This document shows, piece after piece, positions 8,752-23,586 of a stretch of 64,000 nt of DNA. The notes under the pieces are model-generated. The model did not search any database. It had not been told where the DNA came from and saw nothing but the letters and a program-made list of their open reading frames with translations. The stretch is from contig NZ_CAJHAF010000001.1 of assembly GCF_904846315.1 (NCBI RefSeq), forward strand, positions 1,426,001 to 1,490,000. The letters run 5' to 3'. Each line of letters begins with the position of its first letter. Position 1 is the stretch's first letter. The position numbers and the translations under genes were made by a program. Source of the stretch: Psychrobacter jeotgali (GTDB taxonomy: Bacteria; Pseudomonadota; Gammaproteobacteria; Pseudomonadales; Moraxellaceae).

Positions 8752-9819
8752 ATGAGACATTTTTATTTAGATTTTATCTTCACTGCCATTGCCTTAGCGG
8801 TAGCGGCTTGGTGGGGATATTCACATGGCGGTATGGGCGGGCTGATTGCCACGCTATCGATTACCGCTATTTTGGCCGTCATGGAAATCTCATTATCATT
8901 CGATAATGCGGTGGTCAACGCCTCGGTGCTTAAAGGCTGGGATGATTTTTGGAAAAAGATTTTCTTAACCGTTGGTATTTTAATCGCAGTATTCGGTATG
9001 CGTTTGGTGTTCCCTATCGTGATTGTCGCCGTTACCGCAGACTTAGGGATGATGCAGGTCATTGATTTAGCTTTGAATGATCCTAAAGAATACTCAGCAA
9101 GACTAATGGCTCATCATGCTGAGATCTCAGCATTTGGTGGTATGTTCTTGTTATTGGTTTTCTTAAACTTTATATTCGATGACAAAGATGTTCATTGGTT
9201 TAACTGGCTCGAGAGCCGCTTGGTGAAGCTAGGCAAAGTTGACGCTATGAGTGTATTTGTAGCACTCATTGTACTGATGATAGCGGTAACTTGGGCTAGT
9301 GCTGAGCAATCTTCAGCAGTATTAATGGCTGGTATTTGGGGCATTCTAATCTACTTAGGCGTACAAGTAGTATCCGGTATGCTTGAAGGTGATCTCGAAG
9401 AAGAACTAGAGAGTGACGGATCGGGTGCTGCTGCCACCAGCGCTATTATGAAGGGTGGTATCATTGGTTTCTTATACCTAGAAGTACTGGATGCCTCGTT
9501 CAGTTTTGATGGCGTAATTGGTGCCTTTGCTATTACTAATGACGTTATTGTCATTATGTTAGGTCTAGCGATTGGTGCGATGTTCGTCCGTTCTATGACC
9601 ATCTTCTTGGTGGATAAAGGCACACTTGATGAGTTTGTCTATCTTGAGCACGGTGCGCATTATGCTATTGGAGCCCTAGCAGTGATTATGCTGTTATCTG
9701 TAAAATTCCATGTACCAGAGCTCATTACTGGTTTAATCGGTATCGCCTTTATCGGCTGGGCACTAATCGCCTCATTGCAGTATCGCAAACGCCATCCAAA
9801 TGAAGTCACTGAGTTATAA
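8752..9819 (+). CDS. TerC-superfamily integral membrane protein, DUF475 type
   Basis: A 355-residue polytopic membrane protein with about nine hydrophobic segments. It matches the DUF475 branch of the TerC/LysE-like superfamily, whose members are encoded with TerD proteins and are thought to form membrane-linked metal-sensing or transport complexes. Conserved acidic membrane motifs are visible: MEISLSFDNAVVNA in an early helix and the mirrored EVLDASFSFDGVIGAF in a later one. Both contain the (S/F)FD(N/G) signature typical of TerC pairs. The start at 8752 was chosen over an in-frame start at 8596 because AGGA precedes it and hydrophobic sequence begins immediately. A strong terminator follows. 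Confidence 0.88.
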   Translation: MRHFYLDFIFTAIALAVAAWWGYSHGGMGGLIATLSITAILAVMEISLSFDNAVVNASVLKGWDDFWKKIFLTVGILIAVFGMRLVFPIVIVAVTADLGMMQVIDLALNDPKEYSARLMAHHAEISAFGGMFLLLVFLNFIFDDKDVHWFNWLESRLVKLGKVDAMSVFVALIVLMIAVTWASAEQSSAVLMAGIWGILIYLGVQVVSGMLEGDLEEELESDGSGAAATSAIMKGGIIGFLYLEVLDASFSFDGVIGAFAITNDVIVIMLGLAIGAMFVRSMTIFLVDKGTLDEFVYLEHGAHYAIGALAVIMLLSVKFHVPELITGLIGIAFIGWALIASLQYRKRHPNEVTEL

Positions 9820-9866
9820 AATAAGGTAATTTATATTTACTTACTTAGACCTTAGCTTTAATACTT

Positions 9867-9906
9867 ACAGGCTATATCAAATAAATTGATATAGCCTGTT
9901 TTTTTA
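9867..9906 (+). terminator. strong rho-independent terminator after DUF475 gene
   Basis: ACAGGCTATATCAA and TTGATATAGCCTGT pair in a 14-bp perfect stem with a 5-nt loop and run into seven T residues. Confidence 0.92.
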
Positions 9907-10195
9907 GAAAAATGCCTTTAACAGATTGATAAAGAGATGATTTTTTAGCCTTACTAACCTTTAGTAAAATAGTTAAAAAAGTATAAATTAATTCAGGTTA
10001 GTAAGTGAGTTAAATAAAAAAGTAAGCACACAAAATACGCCTTGCTTAGTAAGCAAACGCTTAGTATAGTAAAACTTAACCTATTTGATGGCGTATTGTA
10101 AGTGCTCACCTCTTTAATTTGAGTCTATATTTAGCTATTGCATAGGACATTTTTTATTTCATTAAATTCTAAAGATTAATTAAAAGGACAGTTAT
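9907..10195. other. untranslated region with nested inverted repeats upstream of second TerD gene
   Basis: Two inverted-repeat pairs occupy this region. CTTACTAACC at 9950-9959 is matched by GGTTAGTAAG at 9996-10005. AGCAC..AATACGCC at 10025-10041 is matched by GGCGTATTGTAAGTGCT at 10090-10106, and a small palindrome TTGCTTAGTAAGCAA lies inside the second loop. No coding frame. These could be a structured 5' leader, operators of the downstream gene, or the remains of a small palindromic element. Confidence 0.5.
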
Positions 10196-10771
10196 ATGGC
10201 TATTAGCTTAACGAAAGGCGGCAACGTTAACTTATCAAAAGAAGCCCCAGGTCTTACCAACATTACCGTTGGTCTTGGCTGGGATCCACGTGCTACTGAT
10301 GGCCAAGAGTTTGACTTGGATGCTATTGGCTTTTTGCTTGGGGAAAGTGGCAAAGTACGTAACGATCAAGACTTTATTTTCTTTAATAATTTAAAATCAG
10401 ACAACGGCGCAGTTGAGCACACCGGTGATAACCGTACTGGCGAAGGCGATGGCGATGATGAAAAAATCAAAGTCAATCTAGCGAGCATTCCTGCTGATGT
10501 TAGCAAAGTCGCTTTATGCGCCATTATCTATGAAGGTCAAGCTCGTAACCAAAACTTTGGTCAAGTTGGTGACGCTTATATTCGTGTCGTTAATGACAAT
10601 GGTAATAGCGAGATTGCTCGTTATGACTTGTCAGAAGACGGTAGTACTGAAACCGCTATGATCTTTGGTGAGCTTTATCGCCATAACAATGATTGGAAAT
10701 TCCGCGCAGTAGGTCAAGGCTTCAGCGGTGGACTCGGTCCACTAGCAGCTTCTTATGGCGTAAATGTTTAA
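10196..10771 (+). CDS. TerD-family calcium-binding stress protein (copy 2, TerD/TerE-like)
   Basis: A second 191-residue TerD-family protein, collinear with the one at 7830. GLGWD, FDLDAI and the full acidic Ca2+ motif [13 protein letters not shown] (residues 77-89) are intact, and the C-terminus [16 protein letters not shown] closes the fold. TAAAAGGACAGTTAT precedes the ATG and is a strong ribosome binding site. The nested inverted repeats upstream suggest separate regulation from copy 1. Assigning TerD versus TerE by eye is not safe, so no symbol is given. Confidence 0.92.
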
Positions 10772-10945
10772 TATTACCTGTCAATAAGATAGTCAATATT
10801 TGTCGGTGGCAGGGCTAAGTAAGCACCTGCTACCTTATGCTATTAAACAAGCTACCCATTACTATTTTTAAAGCACAAAAGTACATTTATCAAAAATATT
10901 ACAGATTAAAGAATACAAGAATACAAGAATAAGGATTTACGCCCC

Positions 10946-11698
10946 ATGGCAGCGACATTTAGCTTGATCGGCACTATTGAACCATTCTTACATTGTAACC
11001 TTAAAAAAGGCGATTCAATATATTGTGAAGCCAACGCCATGGTAATGATGGAGTCTAACCTTGAATTAAAAGGTAAGCTCCAAGGCGGTCTTATGCAGTC
11101 GCTTATGCGCCGCTTTGCTAATGATGAATCATTATTTCAACAGCAAATTGAGGCGGTCAATGGTGAAGGCGATTGCTTGCTTGCCCCTACCCTTGATGGC
11201 GATATGCAAATCATTGAGGTTGGTGCGCAGCAATATACTTTGAGCGATGGCGCCTTTGTCGCCGCTCAAACCGGTGTCGATATTAGGGCTAATATCCAGC
11301 GTAATTTAGGCGGTGCAGTATTCGGTGATACTGGCGGCTTTATGGTGATGCAGACCCAAGGCAAAGGTCAGGTTGTGGTATCAGGATTTGGCTCGCTATT
11401 TGAGATTGAAGTGACCCCGGATAAAGACGTCATTATCGATAATGGTCATGTGGTTTGTTGGGATTCCAATCTTGATTATAAGCTATCAGTTTCGACTAGC
11501 AAGAAAAAAGGCATCATGAGCAATATTATCAACTCAGTCACCAGTGGTGAGGGTATGGTATTAAACTTTTCTGGTAGTGGAAAAGTCATTATTTGCTCGC
11601 GCAATCGTGACAGCTATCAAGGCTGGCTCCAAAGCATCCTCGGCACCAGCTCTGGTGGTCGCGGCGGCGGTGGTGGATTTTTAGATAATATTTTATAA
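10946..11698 (+). CDS. AIM24/TIGR00266-family protein in Ter cluster
   Basis: A 250-residue all-beta protein of the AIM24 (TIGR00266) family. Recognisable segments are the start FSLIGTIEPFLHCNLKKGDSI, the MMESNLELKGKLQGG stretch, the central GGAVFGDTGGFMVMQTQGKGQVVVSGFGSLFEIEV, and DNGHVVCWDSNLDY. The C-terminus is glycine-rich (GGRGGGGGF) and ends in LDNIL. Bacterial members of this family have no settled biochemical role; yeast AIM24 is a mitochondrial inner-membrane protein. It lies between two TerD-family genes in the same orientation, so it probably works with them. AAGGATTTACGCCCC upstream of the ATG is a moderate ribosome binding site. No signal peptide is seen. Confidence 0.82.
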   Translation: MAATFSLIGTIEPFLHCNLKKGDSIYCEANAMVMMESNLELKGKLQGGLMQSLMRRFANDESLFQQQIEAVNGEGDCLLAPTLDGDMQIIEVGAQQYTLSDGAFVAAQTGVDIRANIQRNLGGAVFGDTGGFMVMQTQGKGQVVVSGFGSLFEIEVTPDKDVIIDNGHVVCWDSNLDYKLSVSTSKKKGIMSNIINSVTSGEGMVLNFSGSGKVIICSRNRDSYQGWLQSILGTSSGGRGGGGGFLDNIL

Positions 11699-11838
11699 AT
11701 ATAGAATTATAACCATTCACTCATCAACAAGCCTTAAATGACTCGGGTCAGATAAACACTTACTCCTATATTGAATTTATAGAGATTATTCTTCACGAAT
11801 TATAATAATTTACTCACAACCTCTACAAGGACTCTCTT

Positions 11839-12447
11839 ATGGCAATCAATCTACAAAAGGGACAAAAGATCTCCCTAAATAAAGAAGCCGGTGGCACACT
11901 TACGCAAGTCAAACTAGGTCTAGGCTGGGATGTTGCGCAAGGTCCACAAGAAAAGAAGGGTGGCTTTTTAGGCAAACTGTTTGGTGGTGGTAGCGGCGGC
12001 GAATCTATCGATTTAGACGCCTCGTGCATTATGTTTGATGGCAATAAGCAGCCCGTCGATGCCATTTGGTTCAGCCAATTAAATTCAAAAGATGGCAGCA
12101 TCGTCCATACGGGCGATAACCGTACTGGCGATGGTGATGGCGACGACGAAGTCATAAGGGTTAATTTAGCAAAAGTACCTGCTAATGTCGTCTCGCTGGT
12201 TTTTACCGTTAACAGCTTTACGGGACAAACTTTTGAGACCGTTGAAAATGCTTTTTGTCGTATCGTTAACGCCGATAATGATACTGAGGTGGCCCGCTAC
12301 AATTTGTCAGCTCAAGGCGGCCATACCGCTATGATTATGGCAAAAGTCTATCGCCACAATGACGAGTGGAAAATGCATGCTATTGGTGAACCCGCCTCTG
12401 GTCGTACCTTTCACGACTTAATGCCTGCTATTACTCCGCATGCTTAA
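11839..12447 (+). CDS. TerD-family protein with Gly-rich insertion, TerZ-like
   Basis: This 202-residue TerD-domain protein differs from the other two by a short insertion after GLGWD: EKKGGFLGKLFGGGSGGESIDLDAS. That is the feature I associate with TerZ/TerX-type members. The acidic Ca2+ motif is intact as GDNRTGDGDGDDE, and the C-terminal strand WKMHAIGEPASGRTFHDL is more divergent. CAAGGACTCTCTT before the ATG is a good ribosome binding site. The gene converges on terA with a shared terminator at 12467. Likely cytoplasmic, acting with the other Ter proteins. Confidence 0.88.
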   Translation: MAINLQKGQKISLNKEAGGTLTQVKLGLGWDVAQGPQEKKGGFLGKLFGGGSGGESIDLDASCIMFDGNKQPVDAIWFSQLNSKDGSIVHTGDNRTGDGDGDDEVIRVNLAKVPANVVSLVFTVNSFTGQTFETVENAFCRIVNADNDTEVARYNLSAQGGHTAMIMAKVYRHNDEWKMHAIGEPASGRTFHDLMPAITPHA

Positions 12448-14003: not shown

Positions 14004-15107
14004 ATGGATACTAGTAATAGTAATAAGAATAACAGCGAACAAGCCAAAGACTCTGCTGTTTGGCTGGCAGAGGGACAATCCAGCCAGCGCGATATGTTGC
14101 AGAGTCTGCAAGCGCTAAAAGCTAAATCAGAAACTCCCTTTACTATCATCGCTTCCCATCGTCAAAATCGTCCTGAGATTTTTGAGTTTGCTGATAAGGT
14201 CTATTCCGAACTCTCTGAACCCTCTTTATCACGCTGGCAATTGGTGCTTGAACAGGCGCAAAAAAACAAGGTTAAAGTATTGCTCACGGGTCGTAATAGT
14301 ATCGATTATGAAGCGCAGCGTGATAAGTTTGCCGCCGCTGGTATTCGGCTATTAACCGGTGCCACTAGCGTGGCGGCATTAGAGTCTATTGATGATAAAT
14401 TTGCCTTTATGCAGCACTGTCAGGCGCATGATATTCCCGTTGCTGCGGCGTGGCGCTTTGATAATAGCGCTGAGCTGAATGCTTTACTTAGCAAACATGG
14501 CGATCAACCACTTTGTGTCAAGCCTGTCACTGGCATATTTGCACAAGGGTTTTGGCGGCTGGATACCGGCAAAGCAGATCATGAGCAATACGATAGCTTT
14601 GAGCATCTTTACTTTACTGATAGCAAGAAAATCAGCACTGACCAGTTTGTAAATGCTTACGCCAACAGCAAAATGGTACATGAGCGCCCTATCCCGATGC
14701 TGCTCATGCCCTATTTAGCTGGACAAGAGTATTCTATCGATGTGGTGTGTGAATATGGTGAAGTGCTAGCCGCTATCACTCGGCATAAAACAGGTAAGGT
14801 GCAACATATTGGTTATGATGAAGCGGTTATGGAGGTGGTCATTCCACTGATTAAAGCGTTCAACTGCGACGGTATCGTCAGTGTGCAGACCAAAGCAGAT
14901 GATAATGGTCAACACTGCGTGCTTGAGATCAATAGTCGTCCCTCTGGGGGCATTGGCTATACGGCTCATAGCGGCGTGGACTTGACCCAAGTCGGCTTTG
15001 GCTATTGGCTTGGTTTGACTGACAAGCCTAAACTGGCGAATATCGTTAAGCAAATTAAACCCTGTCAGGTACGTTCGATAATGACCAGTGTAAAGATTGA
15101 AGATTAA
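14004..15107 (+). CDS. ATP-grasp enzyme of the Ter-linked biosynthetic module
   Basis: A 367-residue ATP-grasp ligase matching the Ter-operon type (ATPgrasp_Ter). Visible features are the pre-grasp segment LLTGATSVAALESIDDKFAFM, the KPVTGIFAQGFWRLD nucleotide-binding region, MLLMPYLAGQEYSIDVV, and the metal-binding LEINSRPSGGIGYTAHSGVDL. Such enzymes form amide, thioester or similar bonds through acyl-phosphates. In published comparative genomics of Ter systems (Anantharaman, Iyer and Aravind 2012) this family is grouped with PRTase, HAD, PELOTA and lyase proteins, which are all found here at 18735-23357. Start at 14004 was chosen because GAGAG precedes it; an in-frame ATG at 13917 has no ribosome binding site. 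Confidence 0.85.
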   Translation: MDTSNSNKNNSEQAKDSAVWLAEGQSSQRDMLQSLQALKAKSETPFTIIASHRQNRPEIFEFADKVYSELSEPSLSRWQLVLEQAQKNKVKVLLTGRNSIDYEAQRDKFAAAGIRLLTGATSVAALESIDDKFAFMQHCQAHDIPVAAAWRFDNSAELNALLSKHGDQPLCVKPVTGIFAQGFWRLDTGKADHEQYDSFEHLYFTDSKKISTDQFVNAYANSKMVHERPIPMLLMPYLAGQEYSIDVVCEYGEVLAAITRHKTGKVQHIGYDEAVMEVVIPLIKAFNCDGIVSVQTKADDNGQHCVLEINSRPSGGIGYTAHSGVDLTQVGFGYWLGLTDKPKLANIVKQIKPCQVRSIMTSVKIED

Positions 15108-15143
15108 CGATAAGTAACTCTTCAGTTTAACTGTGATACTTAA

Positions 15144-15166
15144 CCCTAAAAAACCCTTTTTTTAGG
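15144..15166 (+). terminator. possible AT-rich terminator after the ATP-grasp gene
   Basis: CCTAAAAAA and TTTTTTAGG form a hairpin around CCCT. The stem is AT-rich and the T-run lies inside it, so efficiency is doubtful. It lies at the boundary between the ATP-grasp gene and the CRISPR leader. Confidence 0.4.
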
Positions 15167-15284
15167 CGCTATAAAAAATACCAACAAAATCAATAATTTA
15201 TAATAGGGCTAAAAATGCAGGGTAATTTATGGTATTTTGCCCTCAACGCCTTGTCTTAACTGATTTTTTTGAGGTATAATTCTT
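15167..15284 (+). promoter_or_regulatory. CRISPR leader with IHF site and promoter
   Basis: An AT-rich leader of about 120 bp lies at the 5' side of the array as defined by the GAAA end of the repeat. AATCAATAATTTA at 15188-15200 matches the IHF consensus WATCAANNNNTTR at every fixed position and lies 84 bp before the first repeat. IHF bends the leader during spacer acquisition in type I systems. A sigma-70-like promoter is visible as TTGTCT (15251-15256), an 18-bp spacer and TATAAT (15275-15280), which would start transcription at about the first repeat. An AGGGC/GCCCT inverted repeat lies in the middle of the leader. Confidence 0.75.
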
Positions 15285-16388
15285 CTTAATCACCGCATAG
15301 GTGACTTAGAAAGTCGATATGCAGAGCTATGTTGTCTGTATTATCTTAATCACCGCATAGGTGACTTAGAAATGTGCGCAGACTAGCTCAGCTGCTAATA
15401 CCTGCTTAATCACCGCATAGGTGACTTAGAAATAGCATGTCGGTATACCCGTATTGTTCAGCTACTTAATCACCGCATAGGTGACTTAGAAAAATTTTAG
15501 AGATTAATATCATGGCCAAAACCACTTAATCACCGCATAGGTGACTTAGAAAATTATGAACAAACTCAACTTTATCTTCTCGAACTTAATCACCGCATAG
15601 GTGACTTAGAAATGCGCTTAGATACACCGCTGATTTTAGATATACTTAATCACCGCATAGGTGACTTAGAAATGTCATCGTAGCGTTTAATGCGCATAAT
15701 CTAACTTAATCACCGCATAGGTGACTTAGAAACCTACGCCTTCAAAATCAGCAACCGACACACCCTTAATCACCGCATAGGTGACTTAGAAACGATGGCG
15801 GCCGCTATTAGTTTATTAGTCTCACTTAATCACCGCATAGGTGACTTAGAAATCATTTACAAGGCGCTGAATAACGCTGATGACCTTAATCACCGCATAG
15901 GTGACTTAGAAATGAGACGCAAATCTATTTAATCTCACCACTGCCTTAATCACCGCATAGGTGACTTAGAAATACTATGAGGACAGGCGTAAGGTGTCAG
16001 GCAGCTTAATCACCGCATAGGTGACTTAGAAAACGCTACTTGCAGTAAACGAATTAAAAACAGTCTTAATCACCGCATAGGTGACTTAGAAATCATATAT
16101 TAGTATCACTCAGTTAACCGCAATCTTAATCACCGCATAGGTGACTTAGAAAAGTGTCATACTCATAATCTAGGCAACCTTTTACTTAATCACCGCATAG
16201 GTGACTTAGAAATGGTACTTGCAAGATACGTCTATGCCGGTCAACTTAATCACCGCATAGGTGACTTAGAAAGCTCACAAGCAAAGTAACATAGATTGCT
16301 TATCCTTAATCACCGCATAGGTGACTTAGAAACATTAGCCTCAGCTATAGCGTTCATCACATCACTTAATCACCGCATAGGTGACTTA
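15285..16388 (+). CRISPR. type I-F CRISPR array, 18 perfect repeats and a 19th degenerate one
   Basis: Eighteen identical 28-bp repeats occur at an exact 60-bp period starting at 15285. The 5' part is CTTAATCACCGCATAG and the 3' part GTGACTTAGAAA. All 18 spacers are 32 bp. The repeat length, the 5-bp stem TCACC/GGTGA with loop GCATA, and the 8-nt CTTAGAAA handle match type I-F, where crRNA 5' handles are CTAAGAAA-like. This sets transcription left to right, with the leader on the left. The repeat at 16365 matches for 24 bases and then reads TGAG in place of GAAA; it joins the structured trailer. No cas genes occur in the window, so interference must depend on a locus elsewhere. Confidence 0.98.
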
Positions 16389-16549
16389 TGAGCAGCGTTA
16401 AAAAATTGCATGCCAATTTTAGCTGCGCAAGGAAAATCCTTTAGATAGGATTTTCAGGAGTCATAACTTCAAGCGTAACCTGAATAGGAAAATCATAGAT
16501 TTCCCCTTGCGATGGGCTGAGCACTTCCCAAGTGCTCAGAATACCCCCA
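16389..16549 (+). repeat. structured trailer module A (four hairpins)
   Basis: Directly after the degenerate 19th repeat come four stem-loops. H1 is GCAGC (16392-16396) with GCTGC (16422-16426), plus an inner 7-bp AAAATTG/CAATTTT. H2 is GAAAATCCT (16432-16440) with AGGATTTTC (16447-16455). H3 is GGAAA (16487) with TTTCC (16500). H4 is CTGAGCACTT (16517-16526) with AAGTGCTCAG (16530-16539), a perfect 10-bp stem. The module then runs into a repeat relic at 16550. There is no open frame with a ribosome binding site. Related, diverged hairpins occur in the following module, with compensatory changes in the stems. I do not recognise the element; a structured RNA within the pre-crRNA transcript or a palindromic mobile element are the main options. 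Confidence 0.75.
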
Positions 16550-16577
16550 TCTCACACACTTATAGGTGACTTAGAAA
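16550..16577 (+). repeat. CRISPR repeat relic, 3' half intact
   Basis: The last 16 bases (ATAGGTGACTTAGAAA) match the array repeat exactly, while the first 12 are diverged (TCTCACACACTT). It closes trailer module A and is followed by one more spacer-length segment. Confidence 0.8.
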
Positions 16578-16609
16578 AGCGCCGTTACATTATCGGCGGC
16601 CATGGCAGC
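16578..16609 (+). CRISPR. isolated 32-bp spacer between repeat relics
   Basis: Exactly 32 bp separate the relic ending at 16577 from the next repeat at 16610, the same length as all spacers in the main array. This suggests the modules entered or arose within a once longer array. Confidence 0.75.
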
Positions 16610-16637
16610 CTTAATCACCGCATAGGTGACTTATGAG
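16610..16637 (+). repeat. CRISPR repeat relic with TGAG end
   Basis: Bases 1-24 are identical to the array repeat, and the last four are TGAG, exactly as in the degenerate repeat at 16365. The same TTATGAG junction occurs again at 17077-17083. Confidence 0.85.
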
Positions 16638-16916
16638 AGCCGTTAAAAAATTGTATACCAGTTTTAGGCTCGCAAGGAAAATCCTTTAAATATGAGAACC
16701 GTTAAAACAAAGCACTGCTTTGTTAGGTTTGCAAGGGAAATTCTTTAAATAGAATTTCCAAACTCAGAATTCATGCTTCTAAACGCAACTTGATAAAATA
16801 TATTTCATCGCCTAAGCGGCTTAGAAGTTATAACTCTAAACGTAACCTGAATAAGAAAATCACAGATTTCCTCTTGCGACGAGCTGAACATTCCTCGAAT
16901 CTTCAGAATACCCCCA
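16634..16916 (+). repeat. structured trailer module B (composite, diverged copies of module A hairpins)
   Basis: This module holds two copies of H1 and a near-complete remainder. First H1 is GAGCC (16637)/GGCTC (16667) with AAAATTG/CAGTTTT inside. A truncated H2 follows. A second H1 is AACC (16697)/GGTT (16726) with AACAAAGC/GCTTTGTT inside. H2 is GGAAATTCT (16736)/AGAATTTCC (16751), 9 bp. A repeat relic with a different stem lies at 16803-16827. H4 is CTGAACATTC (16884)/GAATCTTCAG (16897), with one mismatch. Compared with module A, many stem positions have changed on both arms so that pairing is kept. The layout suggests tandem duplication and decay of one ancestral unit. Confidence 0.75.
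16803..16827 (+). repeat. strongly diverged CRISPR-repeat-like relic
   Basis: TTCATCGCCTAAGCGGCTTA followed by GAAG resembles the array repeat in layout: a GCC/GGC stem around a 5-nt loop, followed by CTTAGAA. It is embedded within trailer module B. Confidence 0.5.
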
Positions 16917-16944
16917 TCTCACACACTCATAGGTGACTTAGAAA
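16917..16944 (+). repeat. CRISPR repeat relic closing module B
   Basis: As at 16550, the 3' 16 bases ATAGGTGACTTAGAAA are intact while the 5' part reads TCTCACACACTC. The two relics share their diverged 5' half, so they were duplicated after diverging from the array repeat. Confidence 0.8.
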
Positions 16945-17180
16945 AAATGGAAAGATAAAAATGAGTGTTTAGTCGCATAAACGTTTTTAGATAAAAACGT
17001 CCAGCGAGAGTGATTGATTATGAAAAACTTTTAAATCATTCATTTAGACTTCTGTCTTCATCAACGCATAGATGACTTATGAGCAGCGTTAAAAGCTCAG
17101 CTTATGCTTGTTTCTTTATCCCTTCTCCCTCTAAAAAAGCACCTTATTATCAAAACCCAATCTAACTCTCAACCCAACTA
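16945..17180 (+). other. end of CRISPR trailer with a last repeat relic
   Basis: From 16945 a 111-bp segment without spacer periodicity holds a perfect palindrome (ACGTTTTT AGA TAAAAACGT near 16980-17001). At 17056-17083 lies a further relic (CTTCATCAACGCATAGATGA then CTTATGAG) with the same TGAG junction and the same GCAGCGTTAAAA beginning of a module, which then decays into unrelated sequence. No gene is seen up to sotB. Confidence 0.6.
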
Positions 17181-18368
17181 CTAACGCAAATCAGCAAAGC
17201 GCCTTATCATAAATATCATCAGTAGCAGCGCCATACCAGCGACGCCAGCCCCGACAAAACCCACGCTTGATAGCGAGATATTAGTCACCGCATAGCCGCC
17301 AAGTAGCGCGCCCATCCCAATTCCTAAATTAATAACACCCGAGAACATCGCCATCACCATATCTTGGGCGTTGACATCAATCATAATGACTTTGGCCTGA
17401 ATAGAGATGATGAGCAGCATCAGTGCCGTGCCCCACAAGAGCGCATTTAGGCTCAGCGCCCATATCGACGTCACCACCAACAGTAGTGTGAGCATAGACA
17501 CCAACATCACCACCGTCGATACCAGCATCAATAGCGTATTGGACTTATCGCCCCAACGACTGAATATCACACTGCCGATAATCCCAGCGCCGCCGAACAG
17601 CAATAGCACTAAAGTAGCGCCATTTTCACTGATTGAACCTACTTCGCGCATAAAAGGTTCGATGTAAGAATAAGCGGCATAATGGGCAGTAAAGACCACA
17701 AAACAGAATAAATATAGACAGACTAATAACGGATTTTTCAGCAGCTTAGGCACTTTTGCAAATGAGCCTTCAAACATACTAGGCAGGGTTGGCAAGAGTC
17801 TTGCTTGCAAAACAAAGACGATAAAGGCAATCACCCCAATACCGCCAAAGGTCGCACGCCAGCCAAACCATTGACCAACCAAACGCCCTATCGGGACGCC
17901 AAGCACCATCGCCAGTGACGTTCCAGTTGCCAGTACACTAAGCGCCAACGCCCTTTTGCCCTCAGGTGCCACGCGCAGGGCTATCGCTGCGGTGATTGAC
18001 CAAAATATCGCATGCGAAAAGGCAATCCCTACTCGGCTAATCAACAGCACTTGAAAGCTCCATGCCAATACGGAAAGCACATGACTGGCAATAAACACCA
18101 CAAATACCGCCAGCAATAAACGCTTGCGCTCAAGCCGACTGGTCAGTAACATCAGCGGCAATGACATGGCAGCGACAATCCAAGCGTAAAGCGTCAGCAT
18201 CCAGCCGGTTTGAGCAGTGGTGATGGAGAAATCCTGCGCAATGTCACTAAGGAGCGCTACCGGAACAAACTCGGTGGTATTGACCACAAAGGCACTGACC
18301 CCCATCAAAATCATGCGCAGATATTGGGTTTGCCGCGAGACCGGTTCTGTATCAAGGTGATATGTCAT
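17181..18368 (-). CDS. sotB: MFS sugar efflux transporter SotB
   Basis: SotB/YdeA-type proteins export arabinose, IPTG and related sugars by proton antiport. The 395-residue protein has twelve predicted helices and clear family signatures: VNTTEFVPVALLSDIA near the N-terminus, LTLYAWIVAAMSLPLMLLTSRLERK, FSHAIFWSITAAIALRVAPEGKRA, VPIGRLVGQWFGWR and TAHYAAYSYIEPFMREV. It lies on the minus strand between the CRISPR trailer and the divergent TRSP gene, and so interrupts the Ter-linked enzyme genes. Whether it serves that pathway, for instance by exporting a product, or is just an insertion cannot be told from sequence. Confidence 0.92.
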   Translation of the reverse strand: MTYHLDTEPVSRQTQYLRMILMGVSAFVVNTTEFVPVALLSDIAQDFSITTAQTGWMLTLYAWIVAAMSLPLMLLTSRLERKRLLLAVFVVFIASHVLSVLAWSFQVLLISRVGIAFSHAIFWSITAAIALRVAPEGKRALALSVLATGTSLAMVLGVPIGRLVGQWFGWRATFGGIGVIAFIVFVLQARLLPTLPSMFEGSFAKVPKLLKNPLLVCLYLFCFVVFTAHYAAYSYIEPFMREVGSISENGATLVLLLFGGAGIIGSVIFSRWGDKSNTLLMLVSTVVMLVSMLTLLLVVTSIWALSLNALLWGTALMLLIISIQAKVIMIDVNAQDMVMAMFSGVINLGIGMGALLGGYAVTNISLSSVGFVGAGVAGMALLLMIFMIRRFADLR

Positions 18369-23357: not shown

Positions 23358-23451
23358 CCTTTAATTTTTTAATCTTATACCTTTTTCTACTTACTCAGCT
23401 AAGGGTTGTATTACTCTCATAAGTTGAGTAAGATGTTTTATAACGTTATTC

Positions 23452-23518
23452 ACAGGGGCGCCGCAAGGCTGAGAAGTACCCTTTGAACCTGATCCAGCTC
23501 GTACTGGCGTAGGGAGTG
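23452..23518 (+). promoter_or_regulatory. TPP (thi-box) riboswitch
   Basis: The conserved thi-box pieces are present in order: CAGGGGCGCC, AAGGCTGAGAAG, TACCCTTTGAACCTGATC, CAGCTCGTACTGGCGTAGGGAGTG. The GGCTGAGA, CCTGATC and GCGTAGGGA blocks are the thiamine pyrophosphate-binding core. It lies about 70 bp upstream of thiM, whose GGAGGGGAA ribosome binding site is the likely target, so TPP should repress thiMED translation. Confidence 0.95.
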
Positions 23519-23586
23519 TATAGCAATCATCGTATTATTCATGATTCTATGTATTTTCTCGCCTGCCATTTATTTATGGAGGGGAA

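Follow-up and report, generated by a model that had tools for sequence, protein, structure and literature searches.

REP sequences are 20-50 nt palindromes that start with a conserved tetranucleotide at their 5' side, usually GTAG, and the REPIN, an inverted doublet of them, acts as the replication unit. CreTA combines a degenerate mini-array and a toxin RNA beside cas genes. The consulted excerpts of two REP/REPIN papers describe small extragenic palindromes with a conserved 5' foot tetranucleotide, inverted pairs of which form a larger unit (PMC3116915, PMC8266576). In RNA anti-CRISPRs and solitary repeat units (Racr) a CRISPR repeat hairpin is joined to non-spacer sequence, according to the excerpted source (PMC10651486), and the insertion of IS elements into cas genes is published as well (PMC10359306, in excerpt). 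MITEs and CRISPR arrays are both named, apart from each other, in the excerpt of PMC3718332. A term search of the accessible text of PMC3733652 returned neither Psychrobacter nor TGAG, and the titles and abstract openings of the literature surveyed do not name palindromic elements in CRISPR repeats.

The window, a stretch of 64,000 nucleotides from Psychrobacter jeotgali (contig NZ_CAJHAF010000001.1, positions 1,426,001 to 1,490,000), contains a CRISPR array on its forward strand at 15285..16388. Direct reading and repeat finding give 19 copies of a 28-nt repeat, CTTAATCACCGCATAGGTGACTTAGAAA, with a spacing of 60 nt. The assignment of this array (array 1) to type I-F is based on array 2 of the genome, which shares a nearly identical repeat and adjoins Cas6f; the sole Cas6f match of the genome (C1:882310-882894) lies about 0.55 Mb from the window array. 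TerC-like and TerD-like stress genes, named by reading, are found upstream of the array (8753-12447). The only Rfam match at cut-off in the whole window is a TPP riboswitch (23444-23532, + strand), away from the modules described below.

Multi-hairpin modules distal to this array had been reported in a preliminary description, and both direct reading and repeat finding confirm them; all lie on the + strand. The last regular, i.e. 19th, repeat (16365-16388) ends in CTTA-TGAG and not in CTTA-GAAA, giving the repeat end CTTATGAG. It is followed by module 1 (16389..16554, 166 nt), a complete two-ended module with the order TGAG-H1-GCAAG-H2-linker-H3-CTTGC-H4-CTCA. Its end had been set at 16549, five bases too early. 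The H1 core of unit A (16389..16430, 42 nt) is a dispersed, covarying element, recovered with a covariance model at C1:1442389-1442430. The predicted fold adds the hairpins H2 (AAAATCC...GGATTTT, 16431..16455) and H3 (GGAAAATCATAGATTTCC, 16487..16504). The H4 arm with the CTCA end occupies 16511..16554, and H3 and H4 together make up unit B, which repeats the plan of unit A in inverted orientation. The module exits, by direct reading, through the repeat relic CACACTTATAGGTGACTTAGAAA (16555..16577).

The entry repeat of module 2 (16610..16633) again ends in CTTA, followed by TGAG. Module 2 itself (16634..16921) is a 288 nt composite of two H1 units (starting at 16634 and 16693), an internal decayed repeat, and H3/H4. 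The second H1 unit (16693..16734) is nested in the H2 loop of the first and is entered after TTTAAATA. The preliminary description had recognised the two H1 copies, placed the end at 16916, and left unreported the decayed I-F repeat relic inside the module, which direct reading locates at about 16804..16827. A repeat relic resembling that of module 1 follows at 16922..16944 (direct reading), so the exit through a repeat relic holds for both modules. A 48-aa frame with a TTG start (16790-16936) overlaps module 2. The third module is decayed, as had been proposed: its repeat-module junction (17056..17094) comprises the entry repeat (17056-17079) and TGAGCAGCGTTAAAA, and the remainder is lost.

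The basic unit is about 65-70 nt long and consists of TGAG, a variable stem-loop, GCAAG and a second hairpin, with the 42-nt double stem TGAG-H1-GCAAG as the core of the module. Its tag is TGAG, sometimes TGAA and never GTAG among the collected units, for which TGAG/TGAA was itself a search criterion. In the predicted fold of module 1 three arms are joined with nearly no linker, leaving TGA and TCA at the base: H1, a middle arm closed by GCAAG/CTTGC and bearing H2 and H3, and H4. Several longer or composite modules are predicted to fold differently. On the opposite strand, the end of module 1 reads TGAG, stem-loop, GCAAG and AAAATC/GATTTT hairpin, which is the plan of its start; the module thus consists of two units of a single kind, placed in inverted orientation (TGAG...CTCA).

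The fold of window positions 16365-16585, flanking repeats included, has a z of -5.3 against 200 shuffles. Among 66 distinct 42-nt copies of H1, from CRISPR and non-CRISPR sites, 97.2% of the cells are paired, two-sided changes occur at 8 of the 12 pairs, and the covariation score is 0.382 versus 0.117 in shuffled data, in a test that kinship inflates. Across 30 complete modules (10 I-F and 20 III-B), the outer stem of H1 pairs in 123 of 150 cases (shuffled mean 84.0) and that of H4 in 141 of 180 (shuffled mean 124.9); some III-B module types pair poorly at these outer-stem positions. The earlier option that the modules are degenerate array sequence agrees poorly with this conserved and covarying structure. 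Pairing is kept equally in dispersed and CRISPR copies of H1, and is thus a trait of the element and not proof of a CRISPR role. An Rfam identity was rejected, no family matching the module at its curated cut-off; with E up to 5, positions 15100-17250 yielded only CRISPR-DR4, below its cut-off.

The junction GGTGRCTTATGAGNNNCG is present 41 times in 17 of 105 genomes of the genus, compared with 8 matches of a reversed control pattern. One of the 17 genomes (G006) has no array within the 19 kb examined, so a few of the junction matches may be chance or relics. The excess over the control, the fold z of -5.3 and the H1 covariation over 66 copies together argue that the module is more than chance. 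TTA precedes TGAG in 35 distinct I-F copies, partly by construction, as this set was chosen by its repeat end. Entry through a repeat ending in TTATGAG instead of TTAGAAA, described earlier as the rule, has one exception, a module of G078 (C1:1478400) that follows an intact TTAGAAA and lacks TGAG. The I-F insertion point is located 4 nt beyond the expected Cas6f cut. Most long I-F modules have an altered right-hand hairpin copy (CACACTTATAGG), short ones lack H4, and last copies often lack the exit hairpin.

Cas6f is present in 24 of the 105 genomes. Modules occur in the arrays of ten Cas6f genomes (G000, G002, G011, G013, G061, G077, G078, G080, G083 and G100), and in eleven the array end is visible and carries no module, so that the module is common but dispensable. 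The remaining Cas6f genomes are G055 (one locus at a contig end, one without a module), G025 (at a contig end) and G073 (outside the comparison); the stretch of G002 that was examined stops short of Cas6f. The I-F array of G078 (L059) includes a 2.6 kb gap, in which reading alone identifies two sets of IS-type transposase genes. The I-F arrays of G080 (L068) and G002 (L067) exceed 160 units each, with a few exact duplicate spacers, which lie far apart.

Other module copies occupy 36-nt repeats, GTCTGAAA...GGGATTAAGAC, of type III-B. The III-B locus of the P. jeotgali genome contains Cmr1, Cmr2, Cmr4, Cmr6 and a CARF nuclease, and a Cas6 match below the curated cut-off. The elements start after ...TCCCTGATTCnTAAGG or ...TAAGGG. 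Type III Cas6 is expected to cut so as to leave an 8-nt handle, and the III-B insertion point lies at, or one base before, this expected cut. Nine stretches contain 32 III-B insertions, 22 of them with a second repeat hairpin within 900 nt downstream; within the same distance none was found for the other 10, many of which are the last array unit. As far as the sequences go, this second hairpin would fit an insertion with duplication and a spacer replacement by recombination alike. Twenty complete III-B modules without unread bases were collected by requiring TGAG or TGAA at the start and a distance of 90-400 nt between two hairpins, with the end left free. They end in CTCA (11), TTCA (7), ATCA (1) and CTAA (1), and in 18 of the 20 CTCA or TTCA stands immediately before the next hairpin. 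Their H1 parts belong to several sequence types of one plan. The III-B locus of P. jeotgali (L153:10515-11705, L154:3476-4629) further contains two small coiled-coil gene pairs between short III-B arrays. In each pair one gene matches PADLOC Unk_03 (E 4e-94 and 6e-4), and the other has no match in PADLOC or Pfam at E 0.01.

The exact H1 pattern was detected in 72 of 105 Psychrobacter genomes, and whole-module matches in 89 of 100. The covariance-model search proposed earlier, run with the H1 core, retrieves 19 copies from the P. jeotgali genome, eight of them inside CRISPR arrays or directly at array ends; it also finds matches in 56 of 149 genomes of the family, 41 from Psychrobacter and 15, weaker, from four other genera. 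Seven sites outside the genus were inspected, of which four are CGAG-start copies beside tRNA and three are TGAG copies. Among the matches listed in a scan of named genomes, mostly chance-like, P. urativorans (L284) is the only one with an H1 unit; the P. maritimus stretch (L287) has none among the matches listed there. Twenty of 44 distinct dispersed H1 copies start directly at a tRNA-like 5' end (CCC-TGAG), and CCC precedes TGAG in 25 of the 44; no duplication was seen at the tRNA sites. Other dispersed copies sit within other palindromic repeats, including GTAG-type palindromes.

A direct genus-wide pattern search for H3 resulted in 101 sites in 40 genomes, which loose expressions sort into I-F arrays (12), III-B arrays (32), Flavo-1-like elements (33) and sites elsewhere (24). 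The sites outside CRISPR are the majority (57 of 101). An exclusive association of the paired form with CRISPR, suggested by a first set from loci not selected for H3, with 40 of 42 cases in arrays and the other two also near III-B repeats, was given up after this search. Unit A is found upstream of H3, by a loose expression, at 40 of the 44 CRISPR sites versus 17 of the 57 others, a contrast to which the classification itself contributes, since sites could enter the CRISPR class by having TGAG/TGAA behind a repeat. G061 possesses six similar H3-H4 insertions (L444, L466, L467, L469, L470 and L471), most of them between a CCCCCTTTTT-like and an AGGGG-like arm, i.e. inside another palindrome, and perhaps a recent burst. 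Some H3-H4 units lie in the middle of elements resembling the Flavo-1 RNA (RF01705), e.g. at L441:1437-1648. The one locus tested at a low threshold scores 40.6 bits, where the cut-off is 42, a value that all 8 loci examined fail to reach; the CRISPR modules of the window, in contrast, match no Rfam family.

Arrays and modules account for about 0.24% of the P. jeotgali genome, assuming 2.5 kb for III-B. If copies were independent, the chance probability of 8 of 19 H1 copies in CRISPR would be near 1e-16, and that of 4 of 19 near 1e-7; since H1 copies are not independent, these values are guides only. All enrichment counts depend on the regular expressions used and come from related genomes that are not phylogenetically independent. 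Matches scattered across genomes with no link to CRISPR had been named as the outcome that would favour an ordinary palindromic repeat family. Half of this outcome is seen: H1 is scattered throughout the genus, but its association with CRISPR repeats is strong and reaches a second CRISPR type.

The modules are probably copies of a non-autonomous, REPIN-like palindromic mobile element of Psychrobacter, for which CRISPR repeats are a frequent and tolerated home. Single units are dispersed, and the inverted two-unit form TGAG...CTCA is the complete element. I-F and III-B repeats are occupied repeatedly on the 3' side of the repeat hairpin, in III-B mostly with flanking hairpin copies. CRISPR repeats, tRNA genes and other palindromes follow a common rule: a stem-loop has TGAG at its 3' foot or close to it. 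Of the options raised in the preliminary description, an element with CRISPR repeats as its insertion target fits best, although most H3 sites lie outside CRISPR.

As in REP/REPIN systems, the TGAG element is a dispersed tagged palindrome whose inverted pairs form a complete module. It differs in its tag, TGAG and not GTAG, in hairpins that vary and are exchanged, and in the concentration of its paired form in CRISPR repeats, a trait not mentioned in the excerpts of PMC3116915 and PMC8266576. An associated RAYT, furthermore, was not found: the H1 unit is absent from all 24 RAYT-like loci, a status judged by length and a weaker score. The search for an autonomous partner covered 53 Y1_Tnp loci, namely three genes of the P. 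jeotgali genome, 30 further loci (29 short IS200-like) and 20 more RAYT-like ones. None contains H1, including 29 of 29 IS200-like loci, and RAYT was rejected as the mobiliser; G100 and G064, both of which carry modules, gave no Y1_Tnp match at all. GTAG-type words are present in 23 of the 24 RAYT-like loci (L498-L517, L022-L024, L212), which suggests that the usual RAYT system of Psychrobacter works on another repeat family. TGAG units are sometimes inserted within GTAG palindromes. With MITEs and IS elements the module shares its short, non-coding form and inverted ends inside an array, and the G078 array likewise has an IS-type gap; it differs in that its inverted ends comprise only about 4 nt, that its position within the repeat is shared by two CRISPR types and that the flanking duplication would be the repeat hairpin.

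Insertion may proceed by joining of the TGAG end to the 3' foot of a palindrome. As such a foot exists on both strands of a palindrome, a two-ended element would enter via staggered cuts that flank the palindrome, and the repair step would duplicate this target of 16-19 nt. In a CRISPR repeat this would leave a Cas6 hairpin on each side, so that both neighbouring spacers would still be processable and the insertion would be tolerated. A stronger form of this reading is possible, though we hold it only tentatively: CRISPR repeats may be the preferred and not an incidental home of the complete TGAG element, whose chemistry would duplicate the palindrome and regenerate Cas6 sites on both sides; the family would be adapted to living in arrays of unrelated CRISPR types while leaving these intact, with their ends as a stable refuge.

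The position of modules within arrays is uneven. Of 34 module-bearing arrays with at least 2 units (18 I-F, 16 III-B), 22 have a module as their final unit, with 6.8 expected at random; the split is 12 of 18 for I-F (2.45 expected) and 10 of 16 for III-B (4.34 expected). In 30 of the 34 a module is last or next to last. Several arrays carry interior modules too. One array of G080 contains four near-identical modules by different spacers and a diverged last module, i.e. four of five are interior. Six pairs of duplicated spacers occur in the same array, none adjoining a module, which argues against simple segmental duplication. Two G077 arrays carry module copies with 96% identity.

Such an end bias, a structure conserved in both CRISPR types and the stable fold would also suit a domesticated array trailer, an element recruited to leader-distal ends, with a three-armed RNA that would shield the pre-crRNA or terminate it, and maintained there by selection. 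We consider this rather unlikely, given the eleven Cas6f genomes with module-free array ends, the interior modules of G080 and elsewhere, and the identical pairing kept in dispersed copies. No intrinsic terminator was found after the window modules on their strand, and the scan total does not exceed that of shuffles. The bias itself can follow from trailer function or from the survival of the oldest repeat; for the REPIN-like element we propose that insertions gather at leader-distal ends because the last repeat escapes loss through repeat-repeat recombination. An ancestral trailer as the sole account was rejected in view of the interior and III-B copies.

A role as decoy or regulator of Cas6 or Cascade, one of the options considered earlier, would have Cas6f free a long RNA with 5' CUUAUGAG, a structured body and a 3' repeat hairpin, which would occupy Cas6f or regulate the system, by a logic similar to that of repeat-mimicking RNA anti-CRISPRs. 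The repeat hairpin before the module, and often after it, agrees with such processing, as do the stable structure of the module and the change of the 5' handle from CTTAGAAA to CTTATGAG or CTTATGAA in I-F copies, which were collected by that junction. We judge this role very unlikely nevertheless, with homologues widespread without CRISPR, one I-F module retaining the normal handle, and the H1 unit in none of 46 viral stretches with the junction pattern. Racr likewise join a repeat hairpin to non-spacer sequence, but the modules are chromosomal, lie within host arrays and have a large structured body with homology to the dispersed repeats, and the viral junction matches without H1 separate them further. 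These 46 stretches derive from two viral scans, on the basis of which a phage origin was rejected. The H1 pattern itself occurs in three viral stretches, of which a stricter expression keeps two, neither following an I-F repeat.

Modules might also be a by-product of array recombination, a single old insertion or trailer fragment copied by homologous recombination between repeats with no further transposition. Tandem modules (G013, G002) and composites (G000, G011) fit unequal exchange, and the left-hand neighbours of array 1 match in G011 and G083 by eye, so that array 1 modules may be inherited. As a general account this is highly doubtful: H1 and H4 of differing types are found at one and the same position in III-B arrays, the two CRISPR types concerned have unrelated repeats, and the duplicated spacers of G080 lie away from modules. 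A CreR/CreT-like RNA, also proposed earlier, seems unlikely from the many non-CRISPR homologues and the array-end position; where CreTA lies beside cas genes, array 1 is separated from Cas6f by about 0.55 Mb, and its unit has dispersed homologues.

Repeat-spacer callers may misread the modules as degenerate repeats and long spacers. If the REPIN-like reading is true, CRISPR arrays would not only be written by Cas1-Cas2, they would also be a landing ground for a palindrome-seeking element, one able to avoid harm through duplication of the Cas6 hairpin. Array trapping would provide a genetic handle on the enzyme that moves TGAG palindromes, and the arrays a natural test of how far foreign structured DNA is tolerated. 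The irregular array ends in many Psychrobacter genomes would thereby be explained.
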